A stretch of DNA of 64,000 nucleotides from Escallonia rubra (Eukaryota; Streptophyta; Magnoliopsida; Escalloniales; Escalloniaceae), in contig JAVXUO010001141.1 of assembly GCA_033065855.1 (NCBI GenBank), positions 124,001 through 188,000 of the forward strand, in the 5' to 3' direction. Below the pieces are notes generated by a model. That model was given only the letters and a program-made list of their open reading frames with translations, had not been told where the DNA came from and did not search any database. Position 1 is the first letter of the stretch, and every line of letters begins with the position of its first letter. Below are positions 1 to 56,400 of this stretch, in pieces. The position numbers were made by a program, and so were the translations under genes.

Positions 1-1043
1 TAGACAAACTGAGGGAAGGAAGAGAAAAAACTGAATTGGAGAGAACTTTTTAGGAAGAGTTTGGAAGGATTAGATAAGACCCAAGGTCGTTGATTTTACT
101 ATTACTCGCTCTCAAGTGTTAATGATTGCAGTTAGCTTGATTTCATGGCTGCATTTCAGTCATCCTATCAGCATGGAAAACTCAAACCTAGTTAACGCAA
201 AACTATTCCCTGATCCTACAAAGGGTTTTTTAATGACGACATTAATGACGTCCTAGAAATCAGCTTGATTGGTTGTCCGTGAATTCGCAACTTTACATCT
301 GATCTTTGGGCCGTCATTGGATTGGCCCTTCCAAATCTAAGAGCCTCTAATGTAAAATCCTCTATGTGGGGTGTCACATCTGATCTTCTACCTCTAGAAA
401 GAGTGCTTGATAAATTAGTTCAAAACCTAGCTAGAGAGGGAAAAAAAAGTTATGGTTCTACTCGTTTCTTTCTTCTTCACTCGTCTTTTTTCTTTCTCTC
501 CACCTTCCACATAGGTATGTCAGGCAAACAGGTGTGGACGATCCCCCTTATTCACAGTAACGTCGGATGTTGGAAGTATATTGTAGGAATATTTAAGGCC
601 AGTTGAAGAACTCAAGTACTTCTAGTATTTGAATTCTCCAAGGCCTCCACATGTCAATTTGGTTGTTTGAGGGGATTTACTCCAAAAAGCGTTTCACTGC
701 ACGGTTTTACCTAACCTTACAACGATGCCACTATTTATATGTCGTCTTTTGATGTGATACATGTTTTTAATTACATGCAACTCCTGTCCTTTCTTTACAA
801 AAACCATACTTCAATGCCAGTATTTCTTTTTTTTCCCCCCTCTTTTGATGTTAATGCATGTTTTCAATCCAATGTTACTTCAGTTCTTTCTTCACAAATT
901 TTTCCGACATTTTGACGCCTATCTGGACTTAAACTTCTTTCTGAGTCCAAGTTTATTAAGGAAAGTATTGTTCACGCCTCATTCCTGCATTTGATTGAGA
1001 ACATATAACTACACACAGACACACGTGTATACATATATGCATA

Positions 1044-1074
<31 letters not shown>

Positions 1075-1160
1075 ACCTTGGTAAAAGGAAATGTTTGCGC
1101 TGTGATGCTGAGAATAAAGAATCATTACAATGATGTGTTAGTAATGATGTTGAACCAAAC
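1..1160 (-). other. KEG intron 12, partial
   Basis: No exon resembling the next HERC2-like repeat (expected motif GWRGQSRDS) is present here on the minus strand, so this intron extends beyond the left edge. It is AT-rich with T/C homopolymer runs and one GT microsatellite. Confidence 0.8.
1049..1074. repeat. (GT)n microsatellite
   Basis: About 13 uninterrupted GT dinucleotides inside KEG intron 12, next to CA-type steps at 1013-1035. Confidence 0.95.
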
Positions 1161-1394
1161 CTTGGCTCTTTGACATCTGGTTTAAGTTGGACATGCTGGC
1201 CCCTGTCTAATGGAATCACTTTTATAACTTCGTCCGCCAGTACTCGAGCTTCTCCAGAACAAAATGACACAAGAAGATTGTCCTTGTCTGGGACACTTTG
1301 CACAAAACCAACACTCTTGTGTTTTGCCCCTTGCCAACCATAGGTTGGAGTTGTAATACTGCGTTTAAACTTCACCCAATCTCCAACTTGATAT
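1161..1394 (-). CDS. KEG: KEG exon 12: first HERC2-like repeat
   Basis: Acceptor TTTCAG|A. It encodes YQVGDWVKFKRSITTPTYGW, then the segment with VGFVQSVPD, SFCSGEARVLADEV and VQLKPDVKEP. The donor is probably CCAAG|GTTTGG at 1161/1160; a competing site five bases on (end 1156) cannot be excluded because the next exon is outside the window. Confidence 0.9.
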
Positions 1395-4300
1395 CTGAAA
1401 CAGCATTTTACACGGATTCTAATACAACTGCAACAGAACCAAGTAGACACTAGACAGGAAAAACCGAAGACTTAGGAACACTAATAGATACACCATACAT
1501 AGTTTTTCACTCACATTGTAGGAAACAAATGAACTCCCTTACTCACAAGTGCCTCCATCAGATCTTCCGAAATCCATTCCCGTGGAAGGGCCTCTAAAAA
1601 GTCACGTAAAGTTTTACCACTGTAATCAATCATAGAAACATAAGAACGGAATTCAATGGCACAAATCTGGGAGCTCCGTTAGCACGCCACATAACCCTTG
1701 AAATTAAACATAAAGAATCCATGTTTTGTTGTTAACACTAGCCAAGCCATATGAAGAAGACATTTCATTAAGCATCAACTTGCCTGTGATTCCTGACTTC
1801 GACAGCAGCATCCTTATATCTAAGCATAACAATTATCCAATCAAGGTTTTCACGTATCATCTTTGCTGAATCAGCGGCAATATGGAAAGCATCGTCACCT
1901 TCATCATTCTGGTAATGATGAGTTAATAGCATTAAAATGAAAGTCAAACAAAGAAGGTATTTATAAAATGGAATTGAGAGATTACCAACGAAAGGAAACT
2001 TACAGTTTGACATATTATGTGTAAAATTATTTTGGATGCGCTAAAAAAGAAAGTAATTTCTTGAAAAGTAAAGAAAAGAGATTCACTCCAACAAAAAGTA
2101 CAGTTAGAACAAAAAGGCAAGGATACGCGACCAGTTTTAATTTGTACTTTCTCGGTGGAGTAGTAACCTCAGGCTAGATTTTTTTTCCTTTCTCTCTGTC
2201 ACTTTGAGAGGGAACTGGGGAGTGGATAAGTAGACTTGGAAGTTAACTTATATCACAATTCACGGTATTGTATAAAGTTAGTTGCAGGAAGTGGGGGAGA
2301 CGAGAGAGTTCGATGTCGATGAGTCTATGGTAGTACTGCTTTCCATAAATGAACTCCAATAATTTTATCTAAGATCTGCTATTATGTTTTATTTACTTCT
2401 TTTTATGAGGAAGCTCAAATACTCATTCCCATCCTACTGCATGAAAACTCTCGAGTTAAACCTGCAATGAAAAGGAATTGAGCAATTACACGAAAAACCA
2501 AATTATTGACAAATCTCGGGTCATCTCTACATCATCCTGCCTTCTAATTTGGATAAAAGCAATTTGCCATTGAACTCTGAAGTGAGGACCACAAGACCGG
2601 AAATCTAGATGAAAACCCAGGCTATAGGACAATTTTCTTGTCATTAACGTACAAAGAAACTGTTTTCTTTCCTTCCAATATCTTCTGAACTATTTCAACA
2701 CTTTGGCTTTCTTACTAGGCACATTTGGTTACTTTAACAGAATGGTATAAACATGTCCTATTCGACTTGGGCTGAAGTTTTCAATGACGAATAGTAAAGA
2801 GCACCATCCCTGATTTAATATCCTAATAAACCAACAATATGTGGAGAGGTAAAGGAAACTTGCAAATAGCTTAACGCAAATGGGGGACCAAATACAAGAC
2901 TTGAACCAAACAACTTACATAATAAGAGTTCCAAAACCAGGCTGACTTGCCAATGGTCCTAGAAGCTTAGGGCCCATCTAGATACCTATTTAAATTTCAG
3001 TTGCCATTCCCTTACTCTGACACAAGTTTTCACAATTCAGGAAACAAAAACAAGGAAACTGCTTATCGTTTATTTTCTAATTTCACTCTGACCATGCAAC
3101 AATTTGGCTGTTTTCTAGCAAGATTTTCAAATACCTGGTCGAATATTGTTTTCCGGAAACAGCTTCAAAAGCAGAAGAAGAAAATAGAAAATAAACCCCG
3201 AAATACTAACAGTAAACAAAAGGATACCAATATGGGGCTTAACTTGTTAGAGAATAGGACTAGCAATACAAATCACGCCCAAAGCCATATCAACGAGACA
3301 GATATGTAGACCCAAATGAGGCTGAATAAAATAAAAGGAAAATAAAGATCATAAACTTGTATGCCCAAAAAGCCACGTTCAGTAGGAACTAGATGGTTTT
3401 AGTCCTTCTAAATAGGAAACATTCTCGTTCTTAACAAAACATTTGCTACAGGATGCCTCTGGACAGAGATAAAAAGATTAAAACATCAAAAAATTTGGGG
3501 AGAGTCGAGGTGAGGTTCGATTAGAAGCTCTTTGGATGAAGGAGATTTACACTGCTGGCCAGGATCCAATAATATAGGGAGTGCAACAGGTGATCAGGTG
3601 CAAAAAACAAGGGACAATGACATCCAAGACCACATCGCCACATGCTAAAAAAGCCTTTACTAGGAACCCAAGGAGGACAGAGCTGATATAAAGACTATTT
3701 GAAGAATAAGAGTCGGTGCACTTAACAGCAACAAACATTACTGCAATACCCTAGAGCGTATCATATGCCATTAGTGGCAATTAAAGGTTTGGGCCCACAG
3801 ATATAATATTAAAGAAAGGTGTAGTTGACACTTAATGGGTGTTCAATTTGGGTTTACTATAATCTACTTTTATTGGTGGGCAGCCAGTAAACAAAATATA
3901 ATGCAGAAACCTGTAAGGATTGTATAACACGTAGTATAAAAGGAAGTTTTAAGGGGGAGACTAGTTTTGCAGCACAAAGAGAGGGGAAGAGGCTAGGGTT
4001 TCGAGAAAAAGGAAGAAGCAAAAGATTTGTGGTTAAGGTAATTGTTCTCGACTTTTTCGTTAAAATCCCGATTTTAGTTCTGCTACCTTTTTTATCGTAC
4101 TCTTGGAATTCAATTACGAAATTTTTGCAATAGTTTTCAGGGAATATTTTGTACCTTATATCAATTGTACTCTCTCTGGTAAGGTAACTAGATGCATAAA
4201 ACTATCAAAAATCAAAAGGGGGAAACTAGGGCTTTATCTAAAGGAACTTCGAGATGCATTAAGTAAAGGTACGCTCCAAATTATTTTCCGAATTTTTTAC

Positions 4301-22300: not shown

Positions 22301-25201
22301 AATCCATGCATGAATGTATTCTAGAGGAATCACACTCAGCCCGGGATTTTCGGCAACCAGGTTTCTTCAAAATTGCCGGAAGTCCATAGTCAGAAACCAC
22401 TGCACGGCCATTTGCATCCAAGAGAAGATTGGATGGTTTTAGATTCATACAAACAACACCAGCAGCATGGAGTTCAGCCACCCCACGAGCAATGTCTGCC
22501 CCATATCTACAATCAGAGAAAAATAATTAATGAAAAGCAGGGTTATAACTTGCTCGTAGCTATTTTTCTCGGCTATAATAATCTGAACATGGTAGCACTC
22601 TCTCAGGCATCTCAAAGTAATTTGCCCATAAATACATAATCAAAATGGCAGAACGTGTTCATTAAAAAACTGAAATAGAACTTATCTTGAATAATCTAAA
22701 TAAATAAACATCAGCACTAGAAGATTTCAGATTCTGAGATAAGGCACGAAATAAAGCAGTTTAGCATGTTGATCGATATAAGCAATAAGTTTGCCTGATC
22801 TTAAAGTATTACCAACTTTAACATTGTGTTCGTATTAATGCTTGCGGACAAAGTATAAATTAATTTTTAATTAACACTTAAGGTCAAAAGAGACGGCTAC
22901 CAAATTCTGCAAGGAACCTGCAGATTCCAAAAGATACCATGTATGCTTCAAAGAAAAAAGCATCATTTTTCTATCCCTCTCCTCAGTCTACAACTCAGCC
23001 CGCACAAATGGACAGCACAACTGAGACAAAGTTGGATTTGGTGCAGACATTGTCTCCATTGGGTGTTCCCAAGTTAAAATTCGAAATGCAAGGTTTAGAC
23101 GTGCAATTGTATCCTCTCATTTCATCAATCTCTTCATCTCTTCCATCACTATGCATGTGTGATCTTCATAAGGGTCTCAAATCAAGGTCCTGGAAAGACA
23201 ACTAATCTGGCATTCAGAGTTGCTGAAAATGAATTGACAGCAAATATGTTTGGGTCCTAGAAGGGGTGAGGAGCTTCCCCACTTCTATTTTTTATGACAG
23301 CAGTGTGAACACAAGGTGGATCGGGTGGTATTAAATGGAAGTGAGGAGGTTATTCCGAAGTTCGAAGGCAGGAAACTTTCGGCGGCAAAGGAGAAATACT
23401 GTGATCTGTGCCGATTTCATGTTTTGTGATGTTTCTGTGAGATGGAACAATCTAAGTTTTGGCAGAAAGAATTTATGTTATACGGCGGACACAGTATGAA
23501 GATTGAAACTACTTCTAGAGTTGCTACTCCCTAAGTGTATCAATGGGCCCAGATTTACATTTTCGTTTTTGGAAAGCGGGGAATTTGTGAGAGAAAGCAT
23601 AATCCTTTTATTTCCCCTTTTGAATCTGAGTAATGCAACATTCACTAGATAAGAAGATATCGTATTGGCTAAAAACACCTGTATAAGTAAAACCTCGGCC
23701 TTTAACTTGCTTTAACATGAACTTTCCCAAGAGATAAAAAAATTGGATCTTCTGCAATTAAGGAACAATACGATTCACTTGCGAAGTCAAGCAAGCAAAT
23801 GCCCATCGCACCACGAGAGAGAGGGAAGGAGGAGGAGGAAGGGGGCGGGGGGGGTGGGGGGCGCAGCACTAACTAGCTAGTCACTTTATCATAATTACCC
23901 AATTCCTCAAGTAATCCAGTCAATAAGGTGTTTAACCTACCCAGTAAGCATTAACCACTAATCCACCAGTAAAGGAAATGTACATGCAAACAAACAAGTC
24001 AACGACCCCACTAAATGTTACATTCACAGCAACAAGTTTCTTTCTGGTGCTCAACTCATAACCTTGAAAACTCCACCAAGAGATGGGAGATTATGGCATC
24101 TAAAGCCAAGAACAATGAAATGGAAGAATCTGCATGCAAAATTATGTATAATTGCAAATTTAAGGTTAATTGAGGTTTCGGTCTCTCAGCTTAGGTGCAA
24201 ATGATTATGTAGGCAATAGTTTACATCATAGCAGAACATTTTATCTGTATGTCTAAACTCGCAGTGATATATAGCCTTGCGACCAGTGTTTTCACAACCT
24301 CAACAATGGTTGGTGAAAGAAGATGTGTCCAAAACAAGTCTAATAAACTAAAAACCAAAAATGACTGCCCAATCATTACAGCAACAGCAGGCCATCAAAT
24401 AGGAAATCCAGTATTAGCACAGTATCATGATGCGAGGAAGCAGTAATAAAAGCAATTTAAAACTGAATCAAACAACCTCAGGATTTGCTCAAGAGTGAGT
24501 CTCCCTTCGTTCCGCTGCATCTCCGTCAAGACCGACCCTTTGCACTTATCCATAACCAGCGCCAGGCACCCGTCCATCCTGGTCGCTCCGTGGAACGTGC
24601 ACACGTTCCGGCACCACATGGAAGACCGCCGCAGGCTCTCCAGCTGGCCCTGCACCCAGACCGAGTCCAAGTCCTCCCCTACCACCACCTTCTTCACTGC
24701 CACGCGGTGCCTGCACCGCCCCGCCCCACCTGAGAGCACAGCCGTCCACATCTCCAGCCCGTTCCTCCGCCCCTCCCCAATCCTCCGCACCAGGCGCAAG
24801 TCCTGGTGCGAGGCCAGCTCGATCACCGTGTCACCGCCGGCGCCGCCTCTGCCGCAGCCGGAGCTCTGAGACTGGCGGCTGGACTGCCTCCGCTGCCTTG
24901 TCTCTTCGTCGTCATCGTCCTCGTCATCGTCCTCCTCGTCGTCCGTCAAATCACGGTCAAAGGAGGGATTAGACGAGTGGATTAGACCTAGAATCGCGTA
25001 GTTCTTCTTCAAGCCTTGAACGGAGTTGCCGACGGCGGAGACGTGGCGGCAGCGGGGACAGGAGAGGGTGGTGTCGGTGGAGGCGGCGAACAAGCGGGAA
25101 AGGCAGTCCTTGCAGAAGCCGTGCCCGCACTGGAGCAGCAAGGGACAGCGTTCCTCCTCGTTGTACCGGTTCTGACACACGGAACAGCACGGAATCTTCA
25201 T
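1161..25201 (-). CDS. KEG: KEEP ON GOING-like RING E3 ubiquitin ligase/kinase, 3' part beyond window
   Basis: Twelve exons in consistent phase encode the first ~940 residues of a protein that in Arabidopsis is about 1,600 residues long. Domain order is diagnostic: RING-HC finger (Cys6, Cys9, Cys25, His27, Cys30, Cys33, Cys48, Cys51), acidic tract (~87-100), protein-kinase domain (Gly-rich loop ~141-144, VAVKK lysine ~170, DYG and APE motifs), ankyrin repeats (~500-830), then the first HERC2-like repeat (YQVGDWVKFKR). The family is a trans-Golgi/endosome-associated E3 ligase that ubiquitinates ABI5 and related bZIPs, repressing ABA responses. The start is the only ATG in frame before the RING cysteines. 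Every junction is GT-AG except intron 10 (GC-AG). The catalytic-loop HRD reads CMN, as I recall it does in Arabidopsis KEG. The last exons, with most HERC2-like repeats, lie left of position 1. Identification is from domain order and recalled family sequence, not a search. Confidence 0.96.
1515..1619 (-). CDS. KEG: KEG exon 11
   Basis: Acceptor TTACAG|T; donor ACAAT|GTGAGT. It encodes SGKTLRDFLEALPREWISE, DLMEALVSKGVHLFPT, which links the ankyrin repeats to the HERC2-like repeats. Length 105. Confidence 0.95.
1784..1908 (-). CDS. KEG: KEG exon 10: last ankyrin repeat, GC donor
   Basis: Acceptor TACCAG|AAT. It encodes NDEGDDAFHIAADSAKMIR, ENLDWIIVMLRYKDAAVEV and RNH. The exon must end CACAG so that AG+T gives the conserved Ser of RNHSGKT. 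The next bases are GCAAGT, so the intron is GC-AG. Length 125. Confidence 0.93.
3930..4040 (+). promoter_or_regulatory. TATA-plus-leader block, possibly from an LTR
   Basis: GTATAAAAGG near 3934 is followed by a purine-rich leader (GAGAGGGGAAGAGGCTAGGG) and a GGTAA splice-like motif, a layout shared with the LTRs elsewhere in this window. It is antisense to KEG. LTR ends were not found. Confidence 0.3.
4811..5052. repeat. 121-bp tandem duplication
   Basis: Two copies, starting GTGAGAGAATACCTG at 4811 and 4932, differ at only a few positions. Confidence 0.92.
5155..5921. repeat. ~370-bp tandem duplication separated by poly-C
   Basis: Copies start GCTTTGTGCAACTAAGC at 5155 and 5542 (period 387) and each ends CTCACCAAC plus a C-run (5520-5536 and 5907-5921). 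The copies are nearly identical, so the event is recent. Translations of the two copies are not genes. Confidence 0.92.
5969..6016. mobile_element. fragment of GTGTCGG-type TIR family
   Basis: GACACGACACGG and CCGGACACACC match the terminal repeats of the element at 14305-14947. With 7139-7252 it may mark one older element split by the 6069-6856 insertion. Confidence 0.4.
6069..6856. mobile_element. non-autonomous hAT-like element
   Basis: Left end TAGGGTTGTATACGAAC mirrors the right end (complement TAGGGCTATAAATGAAC), with GAACTCG/CGAGCC-type subterminal repeats. GTATAAT lies directly outside both ends (6062-6068, 6857-6863). The core has GT-rich runs near 6418-6432. No transposase. Right-end placement is uncertain by two or three bases. 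Confidence 0.7.
7139..7252. mobile_element. fragment of GTGTCGG-type TIR family
   Basis: CCCGTGTCTGTGTCC, CATCGGACACGCG and CACCGACACTAG recall the family seen at 14305-14947. The end ATGTGACATAG resembles the family's terminal step. Confidence 0.4.
9520..9654 (-). CDS. KEG: KEG exon 9: ankyrin repeat
   Basis: Acceptor CAACAG|ATT; donor CAG|GTCTGT. It encodes IILDAGVDVNVRNVHNT, IPLHVALARGAKSCVGLLLS and AGANCNLQ. Length 135 (45 codons), phase 0 both sides. It is followed by the 7.6-kb intron 9. Confidence 0.95.
9655..12184 (-). other. KEG intron 8 (2.5 kb)
   Basis: No gene recognised. It has a C-run at 10553-10564 and a segment at about 10741-10840 that resembles 4678-4745 of intron 9 (shared GCAGGAAACT and CCAAGTTA(T/G)GAGCT), so both come from one dispersed repeat. 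Confidence 0.7.
12185..12306 (-). CDS. KEG: KEG exon 8: ankyrin repeat
   Basis: Acceptor TTGCAG|AC; donor AAG|GTAAGC. It encodes DGRELVRILLAAGADATAQ and HGQTALHTAAMANDVELVK. Length 122, ends in phase 0. Confidence 0.95.
12400..12557 (-). CDS. KEG: KEG exon 7: ankyrin repeat
   Basis: Acceptor TTGCAG|A; donor GCTG|GTAAGG. It encodes PLHLCVATWNVAVVKRWLE and GTALCMAAALKKNHEA. Length 158, phase 2 in and 1 out. Confidence 0.95.
14305..14947. mobile_element. non-autonomous TIR element, MULE- or hAT-like
   Basis: Ends are inverted: TAGGAAGCATC at the left against CTAGGTAGCAC (complement of the right end), followed by matching CCGACACC and GACACCACA blocks. Flanks ATAAGGAAC at 14296-14304 and 14948-14956 form a 9-bp target duplication (8 bp if the terminal C belongs to the element). 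A 9-bp duplication favours Mutator-like, 8 bp favours hAT. No transposase is present. Confidence 0.75.
15604..15731. repeat. long near-perfect inverted repeat (hairpin)
   Basis: Arms 15605-15643 and 15692-15730 pair over about 39 nt with about four mismatches, around a ~48-nt loop. Core blocks are TGGGCCTGGGCTTGC and ATGCTTGTCATACACA. It lies inside a transcribed intron, so a foldback RNA would form. It could be a small MITE or a miRNA-like precursor. Confidence 0.8.
16400..18100 (+). pseudogene. possible decayed retroelement gag-like segment
   Basis: Short broken + strand frames read like capsid/gag relics (for example LSRVPHLFAKYKR near 17135-17175), riddled with stops. A diverged ~110-bp direct repeat lies on either side (about 15945-16055 and 18430-18540), which could be LTR remnants. 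No PBS, PPT or target duplication was found. Confidence 0.25.
20311..20372. repeat. 29-bp minisatellite, about two copies
   Basis: A CTCATCTACTCCCCTCACCC-type unit (29 bp) occurs twice, with a partial third, in KEG intron 6 just downstream of exon 6. Confidence 0.85.
20479..20636 (-). CDS. KEG: KEG exon 6: ankyrin repeat
   Basis: Acceptor AACAG|GAG; donor TTAAC|GTAAGT. It encodes ELLLAGADPNAVDDEGET, VLHRAVTKKYTDCALVILE and GGCGSMGIL. Length 158. It is followed by the 7.9-kb intron 6. Confidence 0.95.
20913..21249 (-). CDS. KEG: KEG exon 5: ankyrin repeats
   Basis: Acceptor TGTAG|A; donor CGC|GTAAGT. It contains DGQTALHLACRRGSVELVE and following ankyrin-type helices, then HVCAYHGQPDCMR. Length 337, ends in phase 0. 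Confidence 0.95.
21335..21460 (-). CDS. KEG: KEG exon 4: linker to ankyrin region
   Basis: Acceptor TGCAG|T; donor GTTAG|GTCAGC. It encodes DFTISPGTNG through LHRLVSECNACGV, the linker before the ankyrin repeats. Length 126. The preceding intron 3 (21461-21783, 323 bp) holds nothing recognisable. Confidence 0.93.
21784..22014 (-). CDS. KEG: KEG exon 3: kinase C-lobe end
   Basis: Acceptor GCAG| before G-TGG (WAGLSSEEIYRAVVK); donor GAAAA|GTACG. It encodes the kinase C-lobe tail (PRELWKMIGECL, RRPTFNAML) and the IPRSPPASPE linker typical of KEG. Length 231, in phase with both neighbours. Confidence 0.95.
22141..22506 (-). CDS. KEG: KEG exon 2: kinase catalytic core
   Basis: Acceptor TGTAG| at 22507; donor CC|GTACGT at 22140. 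It encodes YGADIARGVAELH, the catalytic-loop equivalent CMNLKPSN (Asp of HRD replaced by Asn), VSDYGL in place of DFG, and TAPEAWEQ. Length 366, phases 2 in and 2 out. Confidence 0.96.
23820..23866 (+). repeat. G-rich tract in KEG intron 1
   Basis: A GGA-rich run leads into almost pure G from 23841 to 23861, broken only by single C and T bases. It fits a G-quadruplex-forming sequence on the strand that is template for KEG. The rest of intron 1 (22507-24476) shows nothing recognisable. Confidence 0.7.
24477..25201 (-). CDS. KEG: KEG exon 1: RING finger, acidic linker, kinase N-lobe
   Basis: Codons 1-241 plus two bases. It starts at the ATG at 25201 and carries the C6-C9-C25-H27-C30-C33-C48-C51 RING-HC set, an Asp/Glu tract, a Ser/Gly-rich linker and the kinase N-lobe up to LTLEQIL. 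The donor is AG|GTTG at 24477/24476 (phase 2), joining to A|TAT of exon 2. The exon is distinctly GC-richer than the introns. Confidence 0.96.
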
Positions 25202-25530: not shown

Positions 25531-27442
25531 TACTCGCCCCCCACCTCTTTCTTTTCTTCCGCCCTGCGTTCACACCCCACCCCGTTTTTTCCCAATTTCA
25601 AATGTCCCCTGCTTAGGCCTCTTTTTCAAATTTCCACTCTAAACTGCATTTCTTTCCGTTTGACATTTTCTATTTGTATTTTTGTTTCTATTTTTATTTT
25701 TATTTCTATTTTTAGTTTCATTGTTTTCGTATTCAGCTACGGAATTCGGTTTTATTTTATCATTTTGACCGCTTTTTTTAGTTATTTGTTTAAGAGTTTT
25801 GTGTACCTATATTATTTTTATTCTTATTTTCAGTCATTTTTTTGACTAAATCGTGTACGTTTATCATTTTTTTAAAAAAAATCTCTTTTTTTCACCTCGC
25901 CTTTACTATTGACGCCGATGTTACTATATTATTATTATTGTTACCCCCCCTTATTTCTCTTCCAAAGTCTCACAATTGGGGCCACGTGTCAGGATTTTAA
26001 CGCAGTGTTTTTTATGAGATAGAGAAAGAGAGAAAGAGAGAGGGTTTGCTTTAAAGGTGATGTCGAAGATGAAAAAGATGAATAGTGACTCGACAATGAT
26101 CTTTTTTTCATGGCCAGAAAATGGTCGGAAAAACTTGCAAATCATGGATTTAAAAGATCAAGTATGATTCACGCATTTATAAATCGTGGAATTCTAGTTT
26201 GATGTGTTATTTGGAAGTAAAAACTTGTAAACAAAGAAACTTTTAACATTACATGTTGTTTGCGGACAGTAATAATTAAACATCACATTTATTTTCCACT
26301 TATCTTTATAGTCACTTAAAGTTACAGTAAGAATTCGTCGTCTTTGTGAAAGGTGTATCCGTAGGTCAAATAAACATTTTGAACTCCAATTTGTATTATA
26401 ACCACACTTGTAGTGTTTATAATCTTTTGGGCGACAAAAGAAAGGATTATGAAGTCCCATCTTTCCTCTGGAGAGTCATCACTCTTATTCGCTAATGATG
26501 CAATTCACACTAATGATGCAATTCACACTAATGATGCAATTTATTTATACACAAAAGGCGCAATTATGTTTATCCCTGAGATGTGCCAACTGTACAAATT
26601 GAAGTGCCAATAGGAATACTATCTTCCTATTTATGATATATATATAAATGGCATGTATAAATTTTTCCTTGAGAAATCTAAGGATGTTAAGTAGAGTTAT
26701 ATGTGTTGCAGTATTTTAGTTGTATACGGATCGAAATGCACTTTCATTAAATATAAGCTCAATAAATAATAAACAAAAATTGTTCATTTATGACTGCTTC
26801 TTTACACCGTAATTCCCTTATCTCTGCTTCTTTACACCGTAATTCCCTCTATATATGCGGCTCCTTAAAAAGTATTAATTAAACCCATTTGTCCATTTTA
26901 CATATATAGTGATGCCAAGAAAAGTGAGTTCGTATCTACGTGGAGGTGCCACAAAGGCTGCAATTCGAGTCAGCTTCCAAGTATGCAAAGTGAGAGACAA
27001 TGAGGGCGGAGTAAAGGCAGAGAGCAAGGCTTTCCAGACAGGCCGTGAGGAGTGGCAGTGCTATTGAGGCAAGACAGTGATGAACAGGGACGGCAGTCGA
27101 CAGTCAGTGGTAGGGTCCAAGTTGAGGTCTGATATCACGGTCGCTGATATGTCCAAAGTCACTAGATAATTATGTTTCTCTCTCTAGAATTCAAGAGCTT
27201 TGGATTCAAGAGTGAGAAAGTGAATTTGTGAAATGAAAAAATTTTCTTCTAAATGAGTTCAACAGTGCACTATTTATAGGCAAAAGTATGCATGTGTCAT
27301 CAATTACCACATGGCATCCCCTGGGAGCGACACGTCACCAAGGGGTCCCAAAAATACCGGTTCTCCGTTGGACTGTCGGTTCCCAAATTCACGTTGTTTT
27401 GTCCCACACAGCGTCGCTCTACCTGTCTGAGAAGACTGAATA
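25531..27442. other. upstream intergenic region of KEG
   Basis: AT-rich DNA without a supportable ORF. It holds T-rich runs (25670-25740), a GA-rich run (26016-26044), an 18-bp unit about three times (near 26490-26545) and a 28-bp tandem duplication (near 26795-26850). The last 250 bp before the TRIM array resemble repetitive DNA but are not classified. Confidence 0.6.
25982..25990 (+). promoter_or_regulatory. G-box/ABRE-like element upstream of KEG
   Basis: CCACGTGTC contains a palindromic CACGTG core and the ACGTGTC form of an ABA-response element. It sits about 780 bp upstream of the KEG ATG. One copy can occur by chance. Confidence 0.35.
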
Positions 27443-27581
27443 TGTAACGATCCGGTCCACAGCCCCACCACAGGGCATTGCCTCCCTCAAATGGGCTAGC
27501 CAAGTAGGTACTTATGAGTTCCTTGGTAAGGTCTTATAAGGGTCATCTCATACTATTCCACATCCGATGTGGGATATTACA
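27443..27581 (-). repeat. TRIM LTR 1 (3' terminal)
   Basis: 139 bp. It shares GGGTCATCTCATACTATTCC with LTR 4 and not with LTRs 2 and 3. Confidence 0.93.
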
Positions 27582-27802
27582 ATCTCCCCTCCTTATACCT
27601 TAGCGTCCTCGCTAAGGCTCGATCACACATAGCCTAGAACCTTCCTCTCTAGCCAATGTGGGATATACCCGGCTCACCCTTCGTTGCCCCAACCATCCTC
27701 TTGATGTGGGATATACCCGGGCTTGCCTTCGTTTCTCCCAACCATCGGCAACCCGACTGGATGGCCCAGCCCAAGCTTTCGAGAGTCGGCTCTGATACCA
27801 TT

Positions 27803-27941
27803 TGTAACGACCCGGTCCACGGCCCCACCACAGGGCATTGTCTCCCTCAAATGGGCTAGCCAAGTATGTACTTATGAGTTCATAGGCAGGGTCTTATAAG
27901 GCCAATCGTAAACTCTTCCACAACCGATGTGGGATATTACA
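27803..27941 (-). repeat. TRIM LTR 2 (internal)
   Basis: 139 bp. It carries the GCCAATCGTAAACTCTTCC variant shared with LTR 3, and the PBS lies beside it (27788-27802). Confidence 0.93.
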
Positions 27942-28162
27942 ATCTCCCTACCTTATTCCTTAGCGTCCTCGCTAAAGCTTGATCACACATAGCCCAGAAT
28001 CTCCCTCTCTAGCCAATGTGGGATATACCTGGCTCACCCTTCGTTGCCCCAACCATCCTCTTGATGTGGGATATACCGGGGCTTGCCTTCGTTTCCCCCA
28101 ACCAATGGCAACCTGACTGGACAGCCTAGCCCGAGCTTTCGAGAGTCGGCTCTGATACCATC

Positions 28163-28301
28163 TGTAACGACCCGGTCCACGGCCCCACCACAGGGCATTG
28201 CCTCCCTCAAAAGGGCTAGCCAAATAGGTACTTATGAGTTCATAGGCAGGGTCTTATAAGGCTAATCGCAAACTCTCCCACAACCGATGTGGGATATTAC
28301 A
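28163..28301 (-). repeat. TRIM LTR 3 (internal)
   Basis: 139 bp. It carries the GCTAATCGCAAACTCTCCC variant, closest to LTR 2, with the PBS adjacent. Confidence 0.93.
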
Positions 28302-28522
28302 ATCTCCTCACCTTATTCCTTAGCGTCCTCGCTAAGGCTCGATCACACATAGCCCAGAACCTTCCTCTCTAGCCAATGTGGGATATACCCGGCTCACCCT
28401 TCGTTGCCCCAACCATCCTCTTGATGTGGGATATACCCAGGCTTGCCTTCGTTTCTCCCAACCATCGGCAACCCGACTGGATGGCCTAGCCCAAGCTTTC
28501 GAGAGTCGGCTCTGATACCATT

Positions 28523-28661
28523 TGTAACGACCCGGTCCACGGCCCCACCACAGGGCATTGCCTCCCTCAAATGGGCTAGCCAAGTAGGTACTTATGAGTT
28601 CATTGGCAAGGTCTTATAAGGGTCATCTCATACTATTCCACATTCGATGTGGGATATTACA
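28523..28661 (-). repeat. TRIM LTR 4 (5' terminal)
   Basis: 139 bp. It resembles LTR 1 over the diagnostic block and is bounded by the GAATA duplication at 28662. Confidence 0.93.
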
Positions 28662-31254
28662 GAATACACCATGACAGCATGATCAGAGTAAGCCCGTTGC
28701 CCCAGCCACAGGTCCAAGCCCTTACTGAATCCCACAAGGTGCGTTAAGAGACGCGTAGAGAACCTGACAGCGGTGAGGGTTGCCCCGGTAGCCAACTGCC
28801 AGGTGGACTAGATGCGATGCCCTCCAAAGACCTGCTCCCATCTCGGAGTGACCCGGGGGTCATCGTCTTGGGGGCGCCGATGATCATCGGTAATGTGAGT
28901 GGACCTGGTCCCAACTCAATGTCTAGTGTCATGCAAGTCACCCCAGACGGCGATAACTTTGTGGTAACCAGCCTATCCCGCTACGAAGGGTCCTCGTGCC
29001 GGAGCACTGCGAGCGGAGCCCCCCGGAATGAAGACGGCGATAACTTTGTGGTAACGAGCCTATCCCGCTGCGAAGGGTCCTCGTGCCGGAGCACTGCGAG
29101 CGGAGCCCCCCGGAATGAAGACGGCGATAGCTTTGTGGTAACGAGCCTATCCCGCTGCGAAGGGTCCTCGTGCCGGAGCACTGCGAGCGGAGCCCCCCGA
29201 ATGTTGCACACTCCGGAGAGTGAGTCAAAGCATGTTCCACATCATTGGCGTGGGCACATGGTGTGGTGAATGAGCGTGGTGCCCGGAGGCATGTAACATG
29301 ATTATGGCGCACAGGCTCAGCGACTACCGTCGCGAGGGATGTTTGAGCATTGCAAACCATAGCGGGTTTGAGTGCGATAAGTGAACAAAGTGTCAAAGAG
29401 CCCTTACCCCGAGCTTGGGGTGGTCGACCCCTTGTGCATGGGGTGGCCGACCCTCCTCCGAAGACAATGTGGCCGACCCCCTTTTGAGGGTAAAGGCATG
29501 TTAAGTCTATTCCATGTATTTTTGTAAGGGAAATGGAGCCAAAGTTGCTACTTTGGCGACGAAAAATATACATCGTCATGAATTGCTGTGAAAGGATGAT
29601 GGTGAATGCACGTGACTTGGACGCGCACTTTGACCAGTTCGATGCTTTGAAAAATTAACCGTTGAATGCGTCGATGTGTCGCGCAAAATAGGACCCCCAG
29701 TGGGCCCTTAGGTGCGACCAAAGTAGGTTAGGAACACATAGTCATATATAAATTAGCATCACGATGAATATGTGAATGTATTTATATGTTAGTACAGTGC
29801 AAAAAAAATGTACTAGGAAGTACTCTTACCGTTCCTATGTATGTGAGCTTGTTCCGTAACAGTATATTCCAAAACAAGTTATTGGTTTTTACATTACTAC
29901 ATAATTCATGAACATGATTCTTTCTGTTACTAATTGAAAGAATTTATCGGACCCACCATTCTATTAAAGCGTTTTCATTTTTTATTGAACAATCACCTGA
30001 AAATACTATTTGAGCCGCCGTCCTTAGTCTCATTTGCAGTTTCACCAACACAGTTGAACGCGTCTGGTATAGTCGCTTGTCATTCTCTCATTTCTATTAA
30101 CTAGGGCAGGCAAACCTGGTTTTGCATCCTCAATACTAACACTATGTAGTTGATTGAGATTTCTTTTTTAATATAAATTGACAAACTTTAGCCAGAATTC
30201 TCAAGGGGAATAAGAGGTCTTGTTAGCACATCATGGTTACGCAACTTTGACAGCTATTAGGTCCTATTTTTTTAGATATGCCAGCAAATATTCAATGGTC
30301 AACGTTCAACACTGTTACTCCATTATACTAGGAGTGCACGGTCCAAGTTACATGCTGCACCTTTTTTCTTGAAAATACTCGAAGTGTTAGCAACGACGCC
30401 TCCCCTTTAGACAATGAATTTGGTAGTGCGTCGCTTCGCTCTGGGATCAGCCTTTATAATCCCTTAGGGGCTGGGGGTGCGGCCCGAGCTTCTTCACCTT
30501 TATAAGCGGGGGTGAGGGGGCCAAGGCTTTCCCCTTGGGTGTTCAACCCTAGTTTTCCCCCTTCAATGGGTCAGTTAGCCAAGGGGCGCCTTATCCTCGC
30601 CCCTCTAGGGTCTCTTCTCTTGCTAGGGGCTCCATGCCCTGTAACTTTCGTCGTCCCGCCCTAGCGCTGCGACGCCCGACAGCATCTAAATGTCATCTCT
30701 TGCTACACGCCCTTAGCACTGCTTCCCTCAATCACACCCATGCATTGTTCCTGTATCATGTGCTCTTGCACAACACCCATTGATCGCGTCCCTCGTGCCT
30801 TCTTCATTGAGTATGCACATGGCACTAGGAATACCCCACCGCGTACATGCATGTGCAACTTAAACAAAGGTGCACCCAACACTCCGCCACATTAAGACGC
30901 TCCTGGCGTTGGTCCATCTCTTCTCCATACTATGCACACTTTGCTTTGGTCGTGGAACATGCTTTGACCTGCTTTATGGAGTGTGCCGCATCCTTTAGAA
31001 TACACGGGACACTACCTCAAGAAGCACCGAGTGCCCTAGGATAGGAACTCATCTTCCAGTTAGATACGCAACTCCCTTACGACATTGCCTTGGCGCGCTC
31101 TCAGAACGTCGGCACAAGGACTTTCGCTGGATTGTTGAGTCCCCCATAACACTATTTCTATCAAGGAGCTCTGAGTGCTTTAGCATACAAGCTCCCCTTT
31201 TGCTAGATAGGCAACTCATCTGATGCACCACATTATCCTATCTGGTAAGTTACT
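28662..31254. other. decayed repetitive DNA, GC-rich in part
   Basis: 28680-29480 is markedly GC-richer than the surroundings and holds an 87-bp tandem repeat. 29580-30400 is AT-rich and featureless. 30400-31254 shares words (GGGACACTACCT, CGAGTGC) with 37165-37300, across the LTR element at 31255-37157, so the two flanks are one older repeat split by that insertion. No gene is supported. Confidence 0.6.
28946..29206. repeat. 87-bp tandem repeat, three copies
   Basis: Units start GACGGCGATA at 28946, 29033 and 29120, nearly identical. 87 is a multiple of three, so both strands stay open and read as 29-residue repeats (+: DGDNFVVTSLSR...; -: GGLRSQCSGTRT...). No start signal or family supports translation. 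Confidence 0.93.
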
Positions 31255-33328
31255 TGTAATACTCCAAAAATTTTCTTTTCCGTGTACGAAATTAGTATTT
31301 TTTTAATAAATAAGTTTGTGGTCTTTTGTTAAAAATAAGAAAATGGTTTGGGATTGTTTCTGAAATTTTCAATCAAATGAAAAGTGGTTTCATTCGAATC
31401 AAAATGAAGGGAAATGGTGTTTTGGAGTTTCTGAAGTTTTCGGTCGAATTAAAAGTTTTAATTCGAATGAAAATAAGTTTTCGGTCGAATGAAAATAGTT
31501 TGGCTTCGAATGAAAATGGGTTTCGCTTCGAATGAAAAGATTTTTGTGTGTAAAATGACGGTCGAATGCAACAAAAAAACAAATTTCCTGAAGTTTTCAG
31601 TCGATGAGCAGTAACTTTGAGTCGAATTAATAGTACTTTCGGTCGAATTAAAATTCATTTTCGGTCGAATTGAAAAAAAAAAATTTAGCCATTTTCATTT
31701 CTGTTGGTTTCGGTCGAATGAAACCAATACTTTCGATCGAATGCAAACTTGATTTTTTGTCCCATATAAATAGTCCTCTTATTTCCTCTCTAGCCTTTTT
31801 GGAGTTCTTTATTCCTTTTTCTCTTGCGGTGGAGAGAGAGAGAAAGAGAGAGAAGGGTTGAGAAGTTTGTTTCATTTTTCCCTTGCGGTGGACAGACAGA
31901 GAGAGAGAAGGCTTGGGAAGTTTGTTCCCTTTACCCTTGCAGTAGAAAGAGAGAAAAGAGAAGGTTTGGGAAGCTCTTGTTTTATAAAGTGGTGCTTGAG
32001 GATTTGCATTCTTAAAGACTTGATTAAGGTAAGGGTTTATTTTCGAAATTCGAATCAGCGATGGACCAATCACTCATGTAAGTCCTTAGTTTCTTTTTGA
32101 AATCCGAACTTCTTCAAATGGAGTGAAATGATTCTTCTTCTCCTTTTGATTGAACTTTGTTATGAATGACTTGTTCTCAATGCTATGATTTGTGGAAATA
32201 AAATTTCATTGAATTTGTTTGACCTCAGAATTTGACATATTGATATCGTTCGTTTCAGTGATTTATGATTGTTATTATTTCGTAAACTCCACTTATTGTT
32301 TGACAAGTCCGTTATTTGATAATATTATTTTGAAGCCTTTGAATATGGTTTGACATGTCCGATATTTGATAACGGTTATTTTGAAATTTTATTTTGGTAA
32401 CTTTATGAGCCATGTCACAGTGTATGTGACTTATTTCCGACTTACCCACGTGGAGTCAAACGTGGGCTAGCTCAAGGGAGTTGAGCTAGAGATCGCGATC
32501 TTACTTTCTGAACCGGCCTCATATGTCAGGAATGACGTATGTGACCACTTTCTGAATGGCTCTCTAGTGTCCGTCTCTGTACTCAGATATATTTTGACAT
32601 TTGATATTTGGTCTGCCAGTGTCTGTCTCCGTACTCAGATATATTTTGACATTTGATATTTGGTCTGGTAGTGTCTGTTTCCGTGCTCAGTCTGCTAGTG
32701 TCTGTTTTCGTGCTCAGATATATTTCGACATTTGATATTTGGTCTAACCTCTGTTCAGTTGAAACTGGTGTGTCTTTGAAATCTCGTCTTTCAGACATAT
32801 TTTGACATATGAAATCTGGTTTGATTTTCCGTTCCGTTGAAACATTTTGTGCTTCCAAAATTTTGTTCCTCATATATTTTTGTTTCTGTTTAATTGGTCC
32901 TTTGAGCGACCTTACTGGGCATTTGGCTCATTCCCTTAATGTTTTTTCCTTTCAAGTGATTAGTATGTGGGATTTCAGATTTGAAAGGCTAGCTGTGTGA
33001 CCAAGAGTTAGATGCCTTATTTCAGAGTTAGTATTGACATTTAAGTGTATTTAATCAAGACAAGTTGGTATTACTTAGGTTTTGTTTTGAAACTCCGTGT
33101 TGGAGAAATTTTTGGATTGTATAAAAGTTTTGGCACCTATAACAGTTATTGATATACTCTTGGGAGTTATTAGTGTATGCTCTGAATGACCGTTTGGAAT
33201 ATTTATGATATTTTAAAGTTTTCTGATTTCGTTTGGGAGACTTCTAATAATTTAAAGGTTTCCTCCAAATTCCGTTTATTCGACCGTTTACGCTCCGGGA
33301 ATTTTAATTAATTTTTCGGGGCGTTACA
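31255..33328 (+). repeat. 5' LTR of the LARD-like element
   Basis: U3 carries many copies of a TTCGGTCGAAT-type word (31375-31740), then TATAAATAG at 31765 and a GA-rich leader. It has about 150 bp more than the 3' LTR, owing to extra copies of short internal repeats (31885-31925 and 32590-32750). Confidence 0.94.
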
Positions 33329-35234: not shown

Positions 35235-37157
35235 TGTAATAACCCGAAAATTTTCTTTTCCTTGTGCGAAATTAATATTTTTTTAAATAAATAAGTTTGT
35301 GGTCTTTTGTTAAAATTAAGAAAATTATTTGGATTGTTTCTGAAATTTTCGGTCGAATGAAAAGTGGTTTCATTCGAATCAAAATGAAGGGAAATGGTGT
35401 TTTGGAGTTTCTGAAGTTTTCGGTCGAATTAAAAGTTTTAATTCGAATGAAAACAAGTTTTCGGTCGAATGAAAATAGTTTGGCTTCGAATGAAAATGGG
35501 TTTCGCTTCGAATGAAAAGATTTGTGTGTGTAAAATGAGCTACTGAAGTTTTCGGTCGAATGCAAAAAAAAAATATCTGAAGTTTTTTGTCGATGAGCAG
35601 TAACTTTGAGTCGAATGAATAGTACTTTTCGGTCGAATTGAATTTTTTTTTGAACCATTTTCACTTCTGTTGGTTTCGGTCGAATGAAACCATTATTTTC
35701 GGTCGAATGCAAACTTGATTTTTTGTCCCATATAAATAGTCATCTTATTTCCTCTCTAGCCTTTTTGGATTCTCTATTCCTTTTTCCCTTGCGGTGGAGA
35801 GAGAGAGAGAGAGATAGAAGGCTTGGGAAGTTTGTTCCCTTTACCCTTGCGGTAGAAAGAGAGAAAAGAGAAGGCTTGGGAAGCTCTTGATTTCTAAAGT
35901 GGTGCTTAAAGATTTGCATTCTTAAAGACTTGATTAAGGTAAGGGTTTATTTTCGAAATTCGAATCAGCGATGGACCAATCATTCATGTAAGTCCTTAGT
36001 TTCTTTTTGAAATCCGAACTTCTTCACATGGAGTGAAGTGATTCTTCTTCTCATTTTGATTGAACTTTGTTATGAATGACTTGTTCTCAATGCTATGATT
36101 TGTGAAAATAAAATTCCGTTGAATTTGTTTGACTTCAGAATTTGACATATTGATATCGTTCGTTTTAGTGATTTATGATTGTTATTATTTCGTAAACTCC
36201 ACTTATTGTTTGACAAGTCCGTTATTTGATAGTGTTATTTTGAAGCCTTTGAATATGGTTTGACATGTCCGATATTTGATAACGGTTATTTTGAGATTTT
36301 ATTTTGGTAACTTTATGAGCCATGTCACAGTGTATGTGACTTATTTTCGACTTAGCCACGTGGAGTGAAACGTGGGCTAGCTCAGGGGAGTTAAGCTAGA
36401 GATCCCGATCTTACTTTCTGAACCGGCCTCATATGTCAGGAATGACGTATGTGACCACTTTCTGAATGACTCTCTAGTATCCGTCTATGTACTCAGATAT
36501 ATTTTGACATTTGATATTTGGTCTGCTAGTGTCCGTCTCCGTACTCAGATATATTTCAGCATTTGATATTTGGTTTGACCTCTGGTTAGTTGAAACTAGT
36601 GTGTCTTTGAAATCTTGTCTTTCAGACATATTTTGACATTTGAAATCTGGTTTGATTATCCGTTCCGTTGAAACATTTTGTGCTTCCGAAATTTTGTTCC
36701 TCGTATATTTTGTTTATGTTTGATTGGTCCTTTGAGCGACCTTACTGGGCATTTTGCTTATTCCCTTAATATTTTTCCTTTCAAGTGATTAGTAGGTGGG
36801 ATTTCGAATTTGAAAGGCTAGCTGTGTGACCAAGAGTTAGCTGCCTTATTTCAGAGTTAGTATTGACATTTAAGTGTAGTTAATCAAGACAAGTTGGTAT
36901 TACTTAGGTTTTGTTTTAAAACTCCGTGTTGGAGAAATTTTTGGATTGTATAAAAGCTTCGGGCCCTATAACAGTTATTGATATACTCTTGGGAGTTATT
37001 AGTGTATGCTCTGAATGACCGTTTGGAATATTTATGATATTTTAAAGTTTTCTGATTTCGTTTGGGAGACTTCTAATAATTTTAAGGTTTCCTCCGAATT
37101 TCGTTTATTCGACCGTTTACGCTCCGGGAATTTTAATTAATTTTTCGGGGCGTTACA
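35235..37157 (+). repeat. 3' LTR of the LARD-like element
   Basis: Colinear with 31255-33328, with TATAAATAG at 35731 and the same TTCGGTCGAAT array. It has one fewer GTGTCYGTCTCCGTACTCAG-type repeat. Confidence 0.94.
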
Positions 37158-55564: not shown

Positions 55565-56400
55565 AAAGCAGTAACAGCATATGAAAAATCACAAATGACT
55601 AATTAAAAGTAATGATCGAGTAAAATCAACAGCTTTGAAGTAATCCTATGCCGTAAACCCTAAATCATAAATCATAAACTCTAAATGCTAAACCTTAATC
55701 CCTAAACATTAAAACTAAACCCCTACCTAATCCCTAACCCTAAACCCTAATTAAACACTAAACCTAAATACAACCCTAACCATAAACCCTAAACTCCAAT
55801 CAAACCCTAAACTAAACCAAACTCTAAACTAAACTCAAAATTAAAAGCACTAACAGCATATGGAAAATCACAAATGACTAATTAAAAGCACTGATTGAGT
55901 AAAATCAACAGCTTTGACCAAACTTGAAGTAACCCTAAGCCTTAAACACTAAAATCCTAAACCCTAAACCTTAATCCCTAAACCTTAAACCCTAAAACTA
56001 AACCCTAACCTAAACCCTAAACACTAAACCTAACCCTAAACCTAAACCCTAATTAAATCATAACCCAGAATACAACCCTAACCCTAAACCCGAATTAAAC
56101 CTTAAACCTTAAACCTTAAACCCTAAACTAAACTAAACCCTTAACCAAACTCGAACCCTAACTCTCAACCCTAACCCTATTCTTCAATTATAACCCCAAA
56201 TACACTCCTAAACCAATCTCTAAACTAAACCTTAAACCCTAAACCCTAACCCTAACGTTAAATATAACCTTAATCAAAACCCCAAACTGGAAAATTTAAA
56301 ACCTAAAGCCTGAACCCTAAACTCTAAACCCTAACCCCTAATACTGAACCCTAAACGATAAACCCTAACTTTAAATTGTTAATCCTAAACCGTGTCCCTA
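55565..56400. repeat. degenerate telomere-like (CCCTAAA)n tract inside the CACTA
   Basis: Dozens of CCCTAAA, CCCTAA and one-base variants, the complement of the plant telomere repeat TTTAGGG. A ~100-bp unique block (AACAGCATATG...CAACAGCTTTGA) opens it at ~55565 and recurs at ~55840, so part arose by segmental duplication. Confidence 0.85.

Follow-up and report, generated by a model that had tools for sequence, protein, structure and literature searches.

The window, a stretch of 64,000 nucleotides from contig JAVXUO010001141.1 of the Escallonia rubra assembly, contains a tandem TRIM array in which four LTRs and three internal regions follow each other in one orientation. The two outer LTRs belong to one subfamily (A) and the two inner LTRs to another (B). 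The array is probably the product of a heteromeric TRIM cDNA that was reverse-transcribed from several RNAs of the two subfamilies and was integrated once. The likely mechanism is known in outline: a 2007 paper put it forward for grass elements with three LTRs, and a 2020 study suggested it for Cassandra TRIMs. The window array is an unusually clear four-LTR TRIM case of this already described type.

The array occupies positions 27443-28661, where four LTRs of 139 bp alternate with three internal regions of 221 bp at a period of exactly 360 bp (indels 0%, TRF score 2095). The element reads on the minus strand and LTR4 is therefore the 5' LTR and LTR1 the 3' LTR. The array is comprised of the following features.

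27438..27442, no strand: target-site duplication GAATA, left copy (the 5-bp flank overlap in the empty sites L093 and L094)
27443..27581, minus strand: LTR1, subfamily A, the 3' terminal LTR in the sense direction
27534..27540, minus strand: TATA-like box TTATAAG in LTR1 (LTR columns 92-98), with a putative promoter role
27540..27559, minus strand: A-type block of LTR1, sense-upstream of the TATA-like box and hence in U3
27582..27802, minus strand: internal region 1, polypurine end of A type (T9, A16)
27582..27594, minus strand: polypurine-tract-like stretch adjoining LTR1
27788..27800, minus strand: primer-binding site TGGTATCAGAGCC of internal region 1, two bases past the LTR
27803..27941, minus strand: LTR2, U3 of B type, with T at column 50 (27852)
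27852..27882, no strand: interval of a putative A-to-B switch in LTR2 (columns 50-80), where the TATA-like box would place the start of R
27942..28162, minus strand: internal region 2, subfamily B1
28163..28301, minus strand: LTR3, subfamily B
28302..28522, minus strand: internal region 3, with a polypurine end of B type and a body near internal region 1 (2 differences in columns 59-221)
28317..28360, no strand: interval of a possible second switch, B to A, in internal region 3 (columns 16-59)
28523..28661, minus strand: LTR4, subfamily A, the 5' terminal LTR in the sense direction
28662..28666, no strand: target-site duplication GAATA, right copy, as defined by the empty sites
27540-27559 and 28620-28639: the A blocks quoted by an earlier note on this DNA
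27900-27919 and 28260-28279: the B blocks quoted by the same note

On the minus strand each unit runs from the LTR (TGTAAT...TTACA) through the primer-binding site TGGTATCAGAGCC, the internal region and a purine-rich tract to the next LTR. The assignment to the TRIMs rests on the TG..CA ends, the position of TGGTATCAGAGCC two bases past the LTR, the purine-rich stretch ahead of the next LTR, the 5-bp target-site duplication, and short LTRs with a short internal region devoid of coding capacity, the longest ORF touching the array being 83 amino acids. We take TGGTATCAGAGCC to be a primer-binding site of the initiator-Met tRNA type. The 5S rRNA domain that marks Cassandra has no Rfam match in the window at the gathering score.

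The array has been inserted as one unit. The earlier note described four LTRs and three internal regions at an exact 360-bp period inside a single GAATA duplication, an arrangement on which the coordinates and TRF agree, and took the whole for one insertion. GAATA is found on both sides, and the left flank is part of a dispersed repeat (at least 40 matches scored). In each of the four host-repeat copies fetched, the two sequences that flank the window array abut directly, within 2 bases, and in two copies (L093 and L094) their overlap is precisely the 5-bp duplication. Because the site is unbroken in all four copies, entry of the array as one unit is well shown, and the note's reading stands. 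Merger of two adjacent insertions, which would leave no common duplication, is ruled out by the empty sites. Nested insertion is rejected as well: the 360-bp register is exact and no further duplication is seen at the inner borders.

Just to the right of the array, at 28945-29203, lie three tandem copies of an 87-bp unit that belongs to the dispersed host repeat. The array is situated about 2.2 kb upstream of an ORF (24425-25201, minus strand) that matches a RING domain and, weakly, a kinase. A Mind-bomb SH3 repeat is found at 956-1450 (minus strand), and the two loci probably are opposite ends of a single KEEP ON GOING-like gene. A direct repeat of about 2 kb (31255-33328 and 35235-37157, 86-90% identical) possibly represents the LTRs of an old retroelement. 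Degenerate telomere-like CCCTAAA repeats, internal to the contig, are present at 55654-56368.

The outer and inner LTRs belong to two distinct subfamilies. Of the 139 positions, 5 differ between LTR1 and LTR4 and 7 between LTR2 and LTR3, and the four cross pairs differ at 12-16. Eight columns split LTRs 1 and 4 from LTRs 2 and 3, and none favours 1+2/3+4 or 1+3/2+4. In a tree of 46 LTRs the A and B groups are separated with 100/100 support, LTR1 and LTR4 falling in A and LTR2 and LTR3 in B. AU tests rejected the constrained groupings 1+2 (p-AU 0.026), 3+4 (p-AU 0.002) and all four together (0.008). The pairing that the earlier note had recognized from its two sequence blocks is thus seen equally in the differences, the eight columns and the tree, and the grouping of neighboring LTRs, which would have spoken against it, is contradicted by the tree and the AU tests. 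In this tree, the resolution of which is weak, LTR1 and LTR4 are not mutual sisters. They are separated by four C/T or G/A differences and by a C/A difference at column 80, where LTR4 has the B-like state. Six of the eight diagnostic columns are sense-upstream of the TATA-like box. The other two, 82 and 87, are just downstream of it and would precede the expected transcription start.

The A and B blocks are family-wide variants. With up to 2 mismatches allowed, the 566-Mb assembly (3222 contigs) contains 68 matches to the A block and 750 to the B block, and none to the reversed-pattern controls for either. All 68 A-pattern places lie within the fetched regions, and the B places are represented by part of 100 among the 750. 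Single elements of both kinds were found, as the earlier note had proposed to look for. Among the complete single elements fetched, an exact duplication flanks 10 of 17 with two A LTRs, 5 of 14 with two B LTRs, the one untyped element (L029) and none of the three with mixed LTRs (L017, L026 and L075), each of which is without a duplication of its own. Two of the latter (L017:2056-2554 and L026:2088-2585) combine an A LTR with a B LTR and show no duplication, a pattern as expected of recombination between two insertions.

Several steps of reverse transcription would together give rise to such an array. In the sense direction the units are internal region 3 (B polypurine end) with U3 of B, internal region 2 (B1) with U3 of B, and internal region 1 (A) with U3 of A. 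The minus strand would be copied from the 3' end of an A RNA to the 5' R of the same RNA; then, in place of finishing, the nascent strand would switch to a B RNA at its R, a jump that would be repeated once more. In the normal last step the U3 of the 3' end, which is A, would be copied into the 5' LTR irrespective of the adjoining unit. The A type outside and the B type inside would be due to this copying. The proteins would presumably be supplied by an autonomous partner. Template switching as the way of joining, and the number of RNAs, are what we infer from this order.

The polypurine ends bear on the last step. The polypurine end matches the type of the adjoining U3 in 130 of 138 typed junctions (L102 is a further exception), which is unsurprising because both lie close together. 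The 5' terminal LTR adjoins no polypurine end. In the window array, L011, L012 and L071 it is unlike the polypurine type of its own unit and the same as the far end, which is predicted by copying of U3 from the 3' end and is not predicted by the joining of finished cDNAs. The 5' terminal LTR of L013 fits its own unit and the far end alike, and that of L009 fits neither. Four of the five informative mixed arrays with full ends follow the terminal rule, L009 being the exception.

LTR2 may be a hybrid, with A sequence in U5/R and B sequence in U3 and the change in columns 50-80, as judged from one site only: T50 is found in 1 of 140 B LTRs, namely LTR2 itself, versus 6 of 71 A LTRs, two of which are the window's own. 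Column 65 of LTR2 has another state that is unique among the B LTRs. Over columns 59-221, internal regions 1 and 3 resemble each other closely, with T155 and A192 in both. T155 is absent from 132 other internal regions compared. The exact 21-base pattern containing it occurs at 11 other places in the genome, of which 7 were read; six of these are divergent (80-87% to the window internal regions) and one is a young B element, L102, with both T155 and A192. T155 as a private mark of the window array is rejected by this genome-wide pattern search and by L102. The likeness of the two internal regions implies either RNAs from like sources or duplication of a unit in place, and T155 could mean such a local duplication. 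A second, B-to-A switch in internal region 3 is possible. It is not required, because B elements with a similar internal region exist (L030, L014).

The earlier note had also suggested a search for further multimers with one target duplication, and these were found at several loci. Their counts are lower bounds biased toward query-like copies, since each DNA search scored 40 of 1576-2490 candidates. Complete multimers with exact duplications are the window array, L011, L013, L014, L049, L057, L059 and L062. The layouts below are given in the window's orientation.

L011: A-B-B-A, exact duplication GTTAT, internal regions unlike the window's
L013: B-A-B-B, exact duplication GATTT
L014: five B LTRs, exact duplication CTCAA
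L049: four B LTRs, exact duplication GCACG
L057:221-2466: seven full LTRs and one partial, with two irregular junctions (an LTR-LTR junction and a truncated internal region), a single AGCAA duplication around all
L059: four B LTRs, exact duplication TTCTT
L062: three B LTRs, exact duplication CAATT
L071: B-A-B, duplication matching at 4 of 5 bases
L012: B-B-B-A-B, without duplication

L011 was rejected as a copy of the window array: its internal regions differ and its duplication is GTTAT. The 5' LTR of L062 was typed as mixed by the script, which is an alignment artifact; read by eye it is B. In L049 the terminal LTRs differ at 0 of 139 positions and the inner pair is identical, with two differences between inner and outer LTRs. 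The L049 internal regions differ at up to 9 of 213 positions (for the two least similar, Fisher p=0.010), a divergence that exceeds that expected of duplication after insertion. No flanks within 300 bp are shared between any two of 14 arrays, where more than 40 bp of flank is present; the two flanks of L062 resemble each other, and the flank of L052 is its own inverted partner.

Inverted TRIM pairs joined at their 5' LTR ends also occur, and one bracketing duplication was found in three of five pairs checked: L023:2062-3016 (GATAC), L034:2005-2975 (ATATG) and L075:525-1160 (TTTAC), each inside one 5-bp duplication, and not L035 or L036. L023 and L034 have truncated LTRs, and in L075 a solitary LTR is separated from an element by a spacer of 4 bases. 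These pairs suggest fusion before integration.

If an array is formed by reverse transcription, its terminal LTRs begin as copies of each other and its inner LTRs are free to differ, whereas growth in place from one element makes the inner LTRs mixtures of the outer ones. Fourteen arrays were compared on this basis: the eight with exact duplications, L071 (4 of 5 bases), and L012, L051, L052, L055 and L063, which are without. They were drawn from 17 script-complete arrays with at least 3 LTRs, from which L009 (one A and one B end, no duplication), L067 (a terminal LTR broken into two parts) and L081 (divergent and old) were dropped; L052 is joined to an inverted copy and only its minus-strand part was counted. 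The pooled terminal pairs have 59 substitutions versus 102.7 expected for random LTR pairs (p=6e-5). The values are 33 versus 54.6 (p=0.004) for the eight arrays with exact duplications and 54 versus 91.4 (p=0.0001) for the 13 arrays without the window. In the pooled arrays, the similarity of terminal LTRs thus tends to exceed that of LTRs paired at random. The difference is found in U3 (23 versus 58.3, p=0.0002) more than in U5/R (36 versus 44.3, p=0.058), and the signal comes mainly from mixed arrays. Addition of L009, whose ends have 20 differences, gives p=0.005, and addition of L009 and L081 gives p=0.009. Two statistics were tried and both are given; the second, with equal weight per array, has p=0.007 for the 14 arrays and 0.11 for the eight with exact duplications.

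Of the 14 arrays, 7 have the terminal pair as strictly the closest (the window array, L011, L012, L013, L055, L063 and L071). The terminal pair is tied in L049, and another pair is closer in L014, L051, L052, L057, L059 and L062. When U3 alone is compared, 8 arrays have at least 5 U3 differences, a cut-off picked after the data had been inspected, and the terminal pair is strictly the closest in 6 of them, the exceptions being L014 and L063.

The strongest rival explanation, which we regard as possible but rather unlikely, starts from a resident A element at GAATA. This element, perhaps locally duplicated, would at a later time have taken up its B units, either from B cDNA or circles through homologous recombination or from a B array through gene conversion, and the outer LTRs would be the original A. 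It likewise predicts A outside, B inside and one duplication, and integration into pre-existing elements has a precedent in yeast, cited in the part available of PMC11899658. The B sequence extends without a break over 435-508 bp, from LTR2 as far as the beginning of internal region 3, and is flanked on both sides by A-like sequence with T155 and A192 in common. However, both a local duplication and conversion from a B multimer are required. Common conversion also predicts some single elements with an A and a B LTR and an exact duplication, but none of 15 typed single elements with exact duplications is of this kind, and the three mixed ones lack a duplication of their own. Furthermore, in 10 of 13 arrays the per-base divergence of the most different internal regions is higher than that of the terminal LTRs, an excess individually significant only in L049 (p=0.010) and the window (p=0.047). 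The earlier note had attributed the array to reverse transcription of, or recombination between, co-packaged variants. Its single-unit insertion and its rejection of unequal crossing-over are upheld; the joining by reverse transcription is not proven, because a resident A element invaded by B also keeps A ends.

The mixing of the subfamilies may have been earlier still, if a multimeric transcript of an already mosaic genomic array was copied and integrated as a unit. This yields the same terminal rule, and concatenated Cassandra transcripts are reported in the part available of PMC7215508. We consider it improbable, as none of the fetched arrays, a sample and not a census, has the same unit order and variants, L011 having the same layout with different internal regions. 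A fusion of completed monomer cDNAs ahead of integration, by end-joining or annealing, is more improbable again: LTR-LTR junctions and inverted pairs do exist in this TRIM family (L057, L036 and L064; L023, L034 and L075), but each terminal LTR should match its own unit, and LTR4, of A type, adjoins internal region 3 with its B polypurine end. Simple unequal crossing-over of one inserted element, an account given for maize TRIM arrays (PMC4528315, in the part available) and a conceivable one for homogeneous arrays such as L059, has hardly any chance of being correct for the window array, where it is rejected, in agreement with the earlier note, by the tree, the AU tests and the simulation: it predicts inner LTRs that are mixtures of the outer ones, but LTR2 and LTR3 fall in another subfamily than LTR1 and LTR4, and local unequal exchange simulated at a single mutation level (2% per LTR) and restricted to neighboring LTRs gave a ratio of 1.25 versus 0.57 observed, with 0 of 3000 runs as low.

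A 2014 paper on pear Cassandra, the title of which names multiple LTRs and frequent inter-element recombination, may contain related observations. No subfamily mosaics in TRIM arrays were found among the titles and abstract openings listed from the open-licence literature. The proposed heteromeric cDNA has its closest parallel in the three-LTR complexes of Angela, Squiq and Opie (Sabot and Schulman 2007, PMC1950507), which have a single 5-bp duplication, external LTRs that are alike and an extra LTR inside, and for which R-to-R switching between co-packaged RNAs was proposed. The window array likewise has a duplication around the whole and external LTRs that differ at 5/139 versus 12-16/139 to the internal ones. 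Those complexes are long elements with three LTRs, whereas the window array has four LTRs, at least three units, a non-coding unit of 360 bp and two defined subfamilies.

Template switching was also named as one possible origin of Cassandra tandem arrays (Kalendar 2020, PMC7215508). These are TRIM arrays too, but in the available text their units are described as not differing, unlike those of the window, and their LTRs bear a 5S rRNA sequence that Rfam does not detect in the window. In the parts available, Gao 2016 (PMC4717578) described tandemly arrayed TRIMs and an inverted pair with one duplication, and the Wukong TRIM arrays (PMC4528315) were ascribed to recombination. In both, LTRs and internal regions alternate and many arrays have one duplication, as here; unlike here, those accounts, as far as available, contain no inner/outer subfamily test. 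Tandem LTR retrotransposons of rice and other plants also have one duplication (PMC11899658). These elements are coding, and in the available sections of that 2025 study, unlike in the case of the window TRIM, a subfamily mosaic was not used to decide their origin, on the chromosome or before integration, which was left open. For Onsen, LTR recombination products are consistent with a switch in R, according to the available part of PMC5668417.

The two subfamilies make the question of how such arrays originate testable, because their fixed U3 differences mark the end from which each LTR was derived. As a tentative generalization, most tandem TRIMs in E. rubra might be born before integration: in particles with many TRIM RNAs, each a few hundred bases long, repeated R-to-R jumps would produce heteromeric concatemers, and sometimes palindromic dimers, to be inserted whole by the integrase, and chromosomal unequal exchange would only trim or enlarge them later. 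If this is general, satellite-like arrays would be seeded in one step and TRIM promoters would be reshuffled.
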